From the NCBI GenBank assembly GCA_026990595.1, contig JALXCZ010000049.1:1-64000 (forward strand): a stretch of 64,000 bases of DNA, in the 5' to 3' direction. This document shows, piece by piece, positions 12,109 through 43,708 of the stretch. How positions within the stretch are numbered: the first letter of the stretch is position 1; every line of letters begins with the position of its first letter. This DNA comes from Sulfurovum sp. (GTDB lineage Bacteria > Campylobacterota > Campylobacteria > Campylobacterales > Sulfurovaceae). The notes beneath the pieces are model-generated. The model was given only the letters and a program-made list of their open reading frames with translations. It searched no databases and was not told where the DNA came from. The position numbers were made by a program, and so were the translations under genes.

Positions 12109-12804
12109 GTGAAGAATATACTTATTACAGGTATCGGCTCGGGACTTGGCGAAGCATTGGCTAAAGAGTATCTATCCAAAGGAGACCATGTCTATGCCAT
12201 AGGAAGAAGTTTCCCAAAAGAGCTTGATCATGATCCTCATTTTTTCTTTTTTCCTTTTGATCTTAGTCAAACTTTTATGATACAGTCCAGTATTAAAGAG
12301 TTCATCGACAAACACTCGTTTGATCTTGTTATTCTAAATGCGGGTATCTTGGGTGAGATCAAAACATTAAAAGAGATGGAAGTAACAGAGATCAAAGAGG
12401 TGATGGAGCTCAATGTATGGGCAAACAAGGAATTGATCGACCTGCTCAGCACATATGCCTCTGTCAAACAGATAGTAGGTATCAGCTCCGGAGCTGCAGT
12501 AAATGGTTCTAAAGGATGGGGAGCCTATTCTCTTTCCAAATCAGCACTCAATATGCTGCTGAATGTCTATGCAAAAGAGTTACCCCATATTCACTTTACT
12601 TCACTTGCCCCGGGAGTCATCAATACACCTATGGTACAACAGATCATCAAGTATGTGAATGAAACTGAATTTCCCTCAGCAAGACGTCTAAAAGAAGGAA
12701 AGATACAAAGCCCAAAAGAAGCAGCCAGACTTCTTGTGGCTACTTTTAATACATTATTGGACTATGAAAGTGGAAGTTTTTTGGATGTAAGAGAAATCTC
12801 TTAA
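12109..12804 (+). CDS. Short-chain dehydrogenase/reductase
   Basis: 231-residue SDR with nucleotide-binding GIGSGLGEAL at the N-terminus, LNAG, and the catalytic Ser (ISSGAAV) and YSLSK motif. It uses NAD(P)(H) on an unknown small substrate. The start is a GTG at 12109 supported by AAAAGGA seven bases upstream. Its 3' end overlaps by four bases with the PAS gene on the other strand. Confidence 0.88.
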   Translation: MKNILITGIGSGLGEALAKEYLSKGDHVYAIGRSFPKELDHDPHFFFFPFDLSQTFMIQSSIKEFIDKHSFDLVILNAGILGEIKTLKEMEVTEIKEVMELNVWANKELIDLLSTYASVKQIVGISSGAAVNGSKGWGAYSLSKSALNMLLNVYAKELPHIHFTSLAPGVINTPMVQQIIKYVNETEFPSARRLKEGKIQSPKEAARLLVATFNTLLDYESGSFLDVREIS

Positions 12805-13367
12805 CCGAACATCTTTTTCATTTTATTAAAGAAGATCGCTGTAAGACCTTTTGGTTTTGCCAGCTCTTCTATAAATTGATCATAATTCATTCTTTTCTCT
12901 TCAAGATATCCGTTCAAATACTCAATGGAAGCATCCATATCATGCTCTTTTTCAATCTCAAGCAATTTTGCATAAAGTGGTTCTATTGCCTTGACAACAT
13001 GTTTGGGTGCAGCTTGTCTGAAAGCAAGATAGTGACGTACATTACCCGTTTGATCACGCTTGATATCGAAGTCTGTCACTACCCAGTAGTGGTCACCGTT
13101 TTTCGCTAAGTTCTTAACCACTGCCATGATATTTCTACCGCTTTTAAGGTACTGCCACATCAAATAAAATACTGCTTTTGGCATATCGGGATGACGAAGG
13201 ATATTATGAGGAGCTCCTATGAGCTCACTCTCCTTATATCCAGCTATTTCGGAAAAATAGTCATTACCATAGACTATCTTACCTGTTGTATCTGTTTTAC
13301 TGACAATAAATCTTTTAGCATCAAGTTTGATCTCATTTCCTGTTGGAACCGGTCTTAGTACTGACAT
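12801..13367 (-). CDS. Aer/CetB-like PAS domain protein
   Basis: 188 residues with one N-terminal PAS domain (about 15-125): GKIVYGNDYFSEIAGY, NILRHPDMP, FYLMW and KNGDHYWV are the typical signature of Aer/CetB PAS domains, which bind FAD and report redox state in energy taxis. The remaining 60 residues are helical and there is no transducer (MCP) domain, so like CetB it would need a separate partner; none is encoded here. A GEMM-type riboswitch candidate occupies its 5' leader (13390-13525) and ends about 22 bases before the ATG, next to the AAGGG ribosome binding site. Translation is therefore probably controlled by a cyclic dinucleotide. Confidence 0.85.
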   Translation of the reverse strand: MSVLRPVPTGNEIKLDAKRFIVSKTDTTGKIVYGNDYFSEIAGYKESELIGAPHNILRHPDMPKAVFYLMWQYLKSGRNIMAVVKNLAKNGDHYWVVTDFDIKRDQTGNVRHYLAFRQAAPKHVVKAIEPLYAKLLEIEKEHDMDASIEYLNGYLEEKRMNYDQFIEELAKPKGLTAIFFNKMKKMFG

Positions 13368-13389
13368 CTTTTTACCCTTATATTAAATT

Positions 13390-13525
13390 AAGAGCAACCC
13401 GGCTAACTCATTATAATTCTCTTCGTATCAAAGTAAAACTTCGATACAAGTCCTATCACCAAAGCTTACGCTTGTTGAGTCCCGTGGCTTTCCGTCCCTG
13501 CTTCACAACAGGTTTGGCTTTGAAT
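13390..13525 (-). ncRNA. GEMM-I (cyclic di-GMP class I) riboswitch candidate, variant
   Basis: On the minus strand the leader of the PAS gene contains, in order, AAAGCCAAACC, a 6-bp P2 hairpin capped by the GNRA loop GTGA, GGGACGGAAAGCCACGGG, a long P3 arm closed by ACTCA/TGAGT, and TAGCCGGGTTGC. These are the conserved blocks of GEMM-I RNA. Two oddities: the P3 arm carries about 65 extra bases including a strong hairpin (TTGTATCGAAGT/ACTTTGATACGAA), and the base before CAAACC is C where c-di-GMP binders have G and cGAMP binders A. Its end is close to the Shine-Dalgarno, suggesting translational control. Confidence 0.8.
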
Positions 13526-13590
13526 TTCAGCATTATAATAAAAAAATGTCAAAAAAATGTCAAAAAACTAATCACTTTGATCAATTTATC

Positions 13591-42281: not shown

Positions 42282-43708
42282 TGTTACTCTCCGAACTGCA
42301 AGAGAGGGAACGTCGTTTTAAACTTGCACTTCGGGCAGGTATCCCTTTACTTGTTCTTATTTTCCTGGTACTCTATGCTCTTTTCTTTCAAGATGAAAAC
42401 CTCACTCTTACACTGGGCAATAAATTTTTAATTGCCGGTATTGTTTTTATTACGATCTACTTTATCTATTTTCTCATCGAACTAAGTGTACAGGAGACAC
42501 TCATAGACCAGACCACCCAGGGCTTTAACCAAAAAGCATTTATATATAAACTGAAACACTACAAACCCAAATCTTTAGTACTCTTGACCATTGACAATCT
42601 ATCAACACTCAATGAACATTACAGTATTGAACAGATTGATCTTCTTCTCTATACCATGGTGCATAAATTGAACCTTGTTTTTAAACAGCATGGATTAGAA
42701 AATGTTTTCATCGGTAGACTCTATGGTGCAGAGTTCGTTATCGCCCTGAATGAGGAGAATGAACAGATCCAGTCGATCATGCAAAAATATATTGCAGAGA
42801 ACAAAATAATTAATGATATAGAAGTAGATTATAAATTTTCTATTGTAACCCATACCGGTGAAGATTTTGAAAAGATCATTTTACAGCTTAAAGATATTAT
42901 TGCTGCACAGGAAAAAGATACTTCCGGATCTCAAGAAGCAAACTTCATTAAAAATGCTGAAGAGATCTCTCAAGTTGAATCCAATATCATTACAGCCTTA
43001 AAAGAAGAAAAACTTCTCCTCTCCTTCAGACCTTTGCTTAATACAAAAAACAACCAGATCGATATTTATGAAATATCTGCCAAACTCAAGTCAGAAACTA
43101 TAGGAGATATCCTTCCCAGAGTCTACCTTCCTATAATTAACCGTTTAGGCTTAGGCAGAGAGTATGACTTCATTTTATTTAAACATGTAGTAGATCTTCT
43201 CCCTCTGGTAGATGAGACTATTGCTTTTACATTCAATCTCTCTCCTTTTTCTTTAAGAGATAAAACTTTTCAGGATAAATTTTTTGCCTACCTGAAAGAA
43301 AAAAATATTGATCCTTCACGTTTGATCATAGAACTTTATGAGAGAAAAGCACACCATAATCTCAGCAGCTATCTTAAGACACTCAACAGTTTCAGATCCA
43401 AAGGGATACGAATTGCCATTGATAACTTTGGTTCTTCCAATGCCTCCATGGAATATATGAAACATTTTAAGTTTGATCTTGTGCAGTTTGACAGAGACTA
43501 TGTCACAAAACTTGATGATACGAATACCTATGCCATGCTGACTTCTTTGGTCAAAATGTCAAAAGATCTACATATTACTACTGTAGCAAAATGGGTAGAC
43601 AACGAGTCACAAAAAAAGAAACTTAAAGCACTTGGAATCGACTACCTGCAAGGGTTTGGTATTGCTAAACCTATTGCAGAAAAAACACTTATAGACAAAT
43701 ATAATTAA
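42281..43708 (+). CDS. Membrane protein with degenerate GGDEF and EAL domains
   Basis: 475 residues: two membrane helices (about 20-42 and 49-70), a diguanylate-cyclase-like domain whose active-site loop is RLYGAEF instead of GGDEF, and an EAL-like domain. In the latter the catalytic motifs are altered: ELYE for EAL, DNFG for DDFG, KFD for KxD, and AKWVD for AEGVE, while YLQGFGIAKP remains. It is probably inactive as a cyclase and phosphodiesterase and may sense c-di-GMP, as LapD and FimX do. Translationally coupled to gyrB, with queF nine bases downstream. Confidence 0.85.
   Translation: MLLSELQERERRFKLALRAGIPLLVLIFLVLYALFFQDENLTLTLGNKFLIAGIVFITIYFIYFLIELSVQETLIDQTTQGFNQKAFIYKLKHYKPKSLVLLTIDNLSTLNEHYSIEQIDLLLYTMVHKLNLVFKQHGLENVFIGRLYGAEFVIALNEENEQIQSIMQKYIAENKIINDIEVDYKFSIVTHTGEDFEKIILQLKDIIAAQEKDTSGSQEANFIKNAEEISQVESNIITALKEEKLLLSFRPLLNTKNNQIDIYEISAKLKSETIGDILPRVYLPIINRLGLGREYDFILFKHVVDLLPLVDETIAFTFNLSPFSLRDKTFQDKFFAYLKEKNIDPSRLIIELYERKAHHNLSSYLKTLNSFRSKGIRIAIDNFGSSNASMEYMKHFKFDLVQFDRDYVTKLDDTNTYAMLTSLVKMSKDLHITTVAKWVDNESQKKKLKALGIDYLQGFGIAKPIAEKTLIDKYN

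Follow-up and report, generated by a model that had tools for sequence, protein, structure and literature searches.

A c-di-GMP class I riboswitch as the probable translational ON switch of a solitary Aer-type PAS sensor in Sulfurovum

Introduction

Does a cyclic dinucleotide act through RNA on an energy-sensing protein? This question is raised by one locus in the DNA studied here, a 64,000-nucleotide (nt) stretch from Sulfurovum sp. that we refer to as the window. An earlier inspection of its letters (the sequence-only reading) had placed a GEMM-I riboswitch on the negative strand in front of a gene encoding an Aer/CetB-like PAS protein and had proposed that it links c-di-GMP or cGAMP levels to energy-taxis sensing. 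In Campylobacter jejuni, the best-studied member of the phylum, riboswitches are essentially limited to the TPP riboswitch (PMC3847290). Our search of the literature on Epsilonproteobacteria/Campylobacterota, Sulfurimonas, and Sulfurovum found no description of GEMM-I/c-di-GMP riboswitches, in agreement with the earlier remark that their pairing with Aer/CetB-type PAS genes was not known to be described in Campylobacterota. Here, we ask whether the aptamer is genuine, which ligand it would bind, how it would act on the gene, and what the PAS protein may be connected to.

Results

A covariance search (cmscan, Rfam 15, whole window), as called for by the sequence-only reading, returned the c-di-GMP-I family RF01051 at positions 13390 to 13528 of the negative strand with a score of 54.2 bits (E value of 8 × 10−8; gathering score, 35 bits). 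The match spans the complete model (positions 1 to 87), and RF01051 was the sole non-tRNA Rfam family in the window. Every conserved block quoted in that reading was present on the negative strand in the correct order, and we counted 22 nt between the 3′ end of the aptamer at 13390 and the ATG of the PAS gene at 13367, the distance that it had given. Its extent for the element, 13390 to 13525, held at the 3′ edge, whereas the 5′ edge had to be moved to about 13528. Judging from the sequence and from the covariation among 127 relatives described below, we regard the window leader as carrying a genuine GEMM-I riboswitch aptamer, which adds one member to a known family.

The aptamer forms part of the 5′ leader of a same-strand gene. 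A promoter-like site at positions 13563 to 13535 of the negative strand, TTGACA-17-TATTAT, matches the consensus at 11 of 12 bases and places the predicted transcription start at about 13528, which is the first base of the aptamer; the promoter consensus scan found 4 sites, compared with 1.2 expected in shuffles. TTGACA recurs 11 bases downstream, which gives TTGACATTTTTTTGACA. The direct repeat TTGACAnTTTTTTGACA (13547 to 13563) was seen upstream of only 3 of the 127 aptamers, all in the source genome (L001, L002, and the window), at an HD_5 gene, a PAS-PAS pair, and the window PAS gene; it is possibly a shared regulator site or a duplicated leader cassette.

Within the aptamer, P2 (13497 to 13512, negative strand; CCUGUU-GUGA-AGCAGG) is capped by a GUGA tetraloop of the GNRA type. 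The base of P3 is kept, and its apex carries an unusually long insertion of about 65 nt (13411 to 13475, negative strand), which begins near the tetraloop-receptor position for the P2 loop and contains a 12-bp hairpin (13423 to 13449). The sequence-only reading had not mentioned this insertion. The orthologous locus L046/L193 retains a hairpin with this loop.

The relatives comprise 127 aptamers from 14 genomes, namely, the source genome, 11 others of the Sulfurovum genus, and 2 from other genera of the order. Across the 18 consensus pairs, 97.6% of the pairings were standard, and 13 pairs showed two-sided changes; the observed covariation measures were reached by 0 of 500 shuffles, and sliding the pair partners by 1 to 3 columns destroyed the signal. 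Collectively, the 127 aptamers are real, and their fold covaries strongly. The source genome (2.05 Mb, 99.8% complete) contains 16 RF01051 matches, all above the cutoff, and genomes of the genus contain up to 21 GEMM-I copies. A scan of the phylum found GEMM-I in at least 43 of 397 good genomes and in 10 of 11 within the Sulfurovum genus; outside the genus, there were mostly at least 1 to 4 copies and at least 7 in one genome, all of these counts being lower bounds, as the scan scored ten candidates per genome.

Positions 20, 47, and 92 are numbered here after the Vc2 aptamer and its structure. On the negative strand, the G20 equivalent, which discriminates between ligands and as a G is of the c-di-GMP type, lies at 13518; the A47 equivalent, which stacks between the ligand guanines, lies at 13491; and the C92 equivalent, the Watson-Crick partner of the ligand, lies at 13394. 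G20 was found in at least 125 of the 127 aptamers (one of the two exceptions resembles an alignment shift), C92 was found in 124, and A47 was found in all. Pair 21-46 (13517/13492, negative strand), adjacent to A47 and neighboring the ligand, reads C-G in 127 of 127, in contrast to the G-C of the Rfam consensus.

Aptamers for cGAMP have A20, and an A20G exchange converts a GEMM-Ib aptamer to c-di-GMP selectivity (PMC6456294). Since position 20 is a G in the window and in nearly all relatives, c-di-GMP rather than cGAMP is the predicted ligand; of the two ligands that the sequence-only reading had left side by side, the first is retained and the second is dropped. A GEMM-Ib aptamer sensing 3′,3′-cGAMP would have the same fold, and the GEMM-I aptamers of Geobacter likewise occur in many copies (17, several of them tandem) before surface and electron-transfer genes (PMC6456294), but the G at position 20 and the shift of selectivity brought about by A20G make this alternative very improbable. 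The source genome has 16 GGDEF matches, which are potential makers of c-di-GMP. In the window itself, a weak partial GGDEF match (42557 to 42850, positive strand; 26.7 bits) lies in a 483-amino-acid (aa) frame that is perhaps a degenerate diguanylate cyclase. For some sibling aptamers, the subfamily c-di-GMP-I-GGC (RF03167) gave the top E value; it was rejected, as its consensus G47 is absent. A subset of 16 aptamers (alignment A2; e.g., L127, L102, L143, and L130) has CC/CU in place of AA at columns 16/37 in the P1/P2 internal loop, and most of these also have a longer P3.

The leader is further predicted to form an 8-bp hairpin that sequesters the Shine-Dalgarno (SD) sequence (13373 to 13396, negative strand; −6.7 kcal/mol; pair probability of 0.998). 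Its strands are UGC(92)UCUUA (13396 to 13389) and UAAGGGUA (13380 to 13373), and it contains both C92 and the SD sequence AAGGG; the probability of C92 lying within it, 0.998, was reached by 4 of 300 leader shuffles. With C92 alone blocked, the predicted accessibility of the SD went up from 0.01 to 0.43; with neighboring P1 bases blocked too, it reached 0.64. The window leader showed no intrinsic terminator. Because the hairpin contains C92, its full form and ligand binding are mutually exclusive. With c-di-GMP scarce, pairing of UGCUCUUA with UAAGGGUA would close the hairpin, pull C92 from the binding pocket, and hide the ribosome site; with c-di-GMP abundant, the ligand would pair with C92, the hairpin would come apart at its base, and the start site would open. 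In the ON switch of Geobacter pilM, a GEMM-Ib riboswitch, it is likewise the equivalent C that is sequestered (PMC9262584). Taken together with the other loci described below, this favors ligand-ON regulation that would be translational at this locus, and we infer that high c-di-GMP probably switches on, through this class I riboswitch, the translation of the stand-alone Aer-type PAS sensor.

The same aptamer might instead serve as an OFF switch, in which AAGAG of the P3 insertion pairs with CUCUU and frees the SD in the ligand-free state, and the SD hairpin can form once the ligand is bound. Indeed, AAGAGAAUU, which is complementary to CUCUU, occurs in the insertions of both the window and L046, and some GEMM-I riboswitches are OFF switches, for example, Cd1 of C. 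difficile (PMC9262584). However, the SD hairpin includes the ligand-pairing C92, the ligand-free minimum-energy fold has P3 and the SD hairpin instead of AAGAG:CUCUU, and at other loci C92 is also taken up by terminator-like hairpins (L006, with −18.5 kcal/mol, L164, and L125), all of which makes an OFF switch unlikely.

The pairing of C92 on which the ON model relies was compared across loci. In short leaders (12 to 60 nt; n = 38), the mean probability that C92 pairs in the SD zone was 0.29, compared with 0.08 in shuffles; it exceeded 0.5 at 11 loci and did not at the remaining 27. Among the loci above 0.5 are the window PAS gene and, in another species, a different PAS gene (L190), where the C92 block barely shifts the predicted SD accessibility, from 0.33 to 0.36; therefore, the C92-SD model does not hold equally everywhere. 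Over all leaders, mean C92 pairing was 0.32 compared with 0.28 in shuffles, which is little excess. As the C92 signal is confined to short leaders, at the SD, we do not claim a universal mechanism.

The riboswitch is also present at the orthologous locus L046/L193, where the PAS proteins are 89 to 90% identical. In L046, the SD hairpin has an identical stem, a different loop, and nearly equal accessibility numbers; because the stem does not vary between the two loci, covariation offers no support for this hairpin. The PAS orthologs L194/L047 (86%) and L064 (81%) occupy the same locus and also follow the MatE gene, and their unrelated leaders lack the riboswitch. The close orthologs without it therefore indicate either a recent gain at the window PAS gene or (repeated) loss elsewhere. 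The presence of the riboswitch among the closest orthologs only at L046/L193, together with a length of 139 nt compared with 74 to 107 nt in the other aptamers, would suit a decaying or nonswitching aptamer whose function was broken by the long P3 insertion, leaving the leader a relic. Against this, the aptamer has kept P2 with its GNRA loop, P3, and every binding-site base intact; P3 contains a compensatory change from U-A to A-U that is found in other family members too; and the aptamer and the SD hairpin are preserved in L046 though the insertion diverged. We consequently consider a relic quite improbable and retain the ON switch as the preferred reading.

To what genes are the aptamers attached? 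Among 115 downstream genes (mechanical calls with some uncertain start codons, in drafts and metagenome-assembled genomes (MAGs) that may miss genes), PAS was the commonest Pfam domain, with 17 genes. Next came domains of the cell surface and envelope, namely, carboxypeptidase-regulatory-like domains, outer membrane protein barrels, DUF4382, CAP, LysM, YkuD, cadherin and Ig-like domains, ABC exporters, PilJ sensors, and histidine kinases. In the source genome, a glycosyltransferase gene and the gene of an SdrD_B-type surface protein are among the targets, as is a gene for an HD_5-domain (HD-GYP-like) protein (L001:1666-2385). The latter stands behind the best-scoring aptamer of this genome, which makes c-di-GMP feedback possible. 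Tandem GEMM-I aptamers are common, often before genes for glycine-rich lipoproteins or DUF4382 proteins (L093, L097, L117, L119, L123, L136, L187, L132, L107, L173, and L099). At L013 (G000:C17:3726-3802), the aptamer is followed by a hairpin, and a downstream gene on the same strand was not recognizable.

Seven PAS_3 domains were found in the source genome, six of them as stand-alone short proteins, and five of these six genes lie behind GEMM-I, one being the second in a PAS-PAS pair. Across 12 Sulfurovum genomes, 18 of 57 short PAS genes are located behind GEMM-I, compared with an expectation of about 0.3 that assumes about 2000 genes per genome, with orthologs counted repeatedly in the 18 of 57. 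They fall into about four PAS subfamilies, and in the L009-type subfamily, a different one from that of the window gene, the riboswitch is present in seven genomes. The pairing of GEMM-I with PAS is not an isolated case but belongs to a regulon of 16 copies.

As the sequence-only reading had recognized, the gene behind the window aptamer (12801 to 13367, negative strand) encodes a PAS protein of the Aer/CetB type, which stands alone and measures 188 aa (PAS_3 E value of 2 × 10−13). Among solved structures, the Aer PAS domain is its closest relative (8dik; E value of 4 × 10−28), and the two share the signature RHPDMPKAVF..MW. The nearest named genomes that encode the protein are Sulfurovum MAGs, and the genus assignment made here follows these relatives. 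The gene is monocistronic, with an SDR gene (12109 to 12804, positive strand) lying tail to tail after it. An Aer-like PAS domain would fit an Aer/CetB-type receptor by way of which the riboswitch ties energy taxis to c-di-GMP, but neither the MCP signaling domain (PF00015) nor CheW (PF01584) was found in the 99.8% complete source genome, and MCPs were not found in 59 of the 61 Sulfurovum-genus genomes searched. Because chemotaxis is absent, the PAS sensors cannot act through it; the proposed link to energy taxis is scarcely credible and was abandoned.

Some GEMM-I-controlled PAS genes suggest another output. In five genomes, the L010-type PAS gene has the same neighbor 18 to 19 bases after it; in the two genomes read fully (operons L203:641-2101 in G000:C8 and L204:659-2056 in G027:C6), this second gene encodes a protein of 465 to 486 aa that ends in an Hpt-like domain. 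This domain scored 26.8 bits in the source genome (cutoff, 24.6) and 23.7 bits, slightly below the cutoff, in G027. Given the Hpt-like gene in these operons and the absence of MCP and CheW, a phosphorelay is a more probable output than taxis and, passing through Hpt-like proteins, the most probable output of at least one PAS group.

Discussion

The window aptamer shares with Vc2 of V. cholerae and other RF01051 riboswitches the full-length covariance match, G20, A47, and C92, the P2 GNRA loop, and P3; it differs from them in the C-G pair at 21-46, the P3 insertion, and the predicted SD hairpin that uses C92. Its ON logic, in which an alternative hairpin would sequester the ligand-pairing C, resembles in prediction that of the Geobacter GEMM-Ib pilM riboswitch (PMC9262584). 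In contrast to pilM, however, the ligand-selecting base is a G and not an A, and the hairpin would hide an SD sequence instead of acting as a terminator. The regulon as a whole is reminiscent of the 17 copies in Geobacter sulfurreducens (PMC6456294) in copy number, tandem arrangements, and surface-protein and transpeptidase targets, yet its pockets are of the c-di-GMP type and PAS is its commonest target.

With the Aer/CetB energy-taxis proteins, the PAS protein has in common the FAD-PAS signature RHPDMP and the Aer PAS domain as its best solved match, and FAD binding is predicted. Unlike them, it is a stand-alone protein in a genome without MCP or CheW. A PAS regulon under c-di-GMP riboswitches in nonchemotactic bacteria appears to be undescribed in the literature that we searched.

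Under the ON model, sessile cells with high c-di-GMP would equip themselves with a fresh set of small redox sensors that probably bind FAD, together with adhesins, exopolysaccharide enzymes, and outer membrane proteins. We propose, tentatively and as something less than the probable case, that in Sulfurovum c-di-GMP directly resets redox sensing, with riboswitches co-inducing several Aer-type PAS proteins, some of which are Hpt-wired. The large Sulfurovum c-di-GMP-I regulon would show c-di-GMP acting via RNA across a whole genus of Campylobacterota, and the enrichment of PAS sensors among its targets, in bacteria without chemotaxis machinery, poses the question of what role Aer-type sensors play when there is nothing to steer. 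If the proposal is true, attached cells would change which internal redox signals they read, and Aer-type PAS sensors would have a chemotaxis-independent role under the control of a second messenger acting through RNA.
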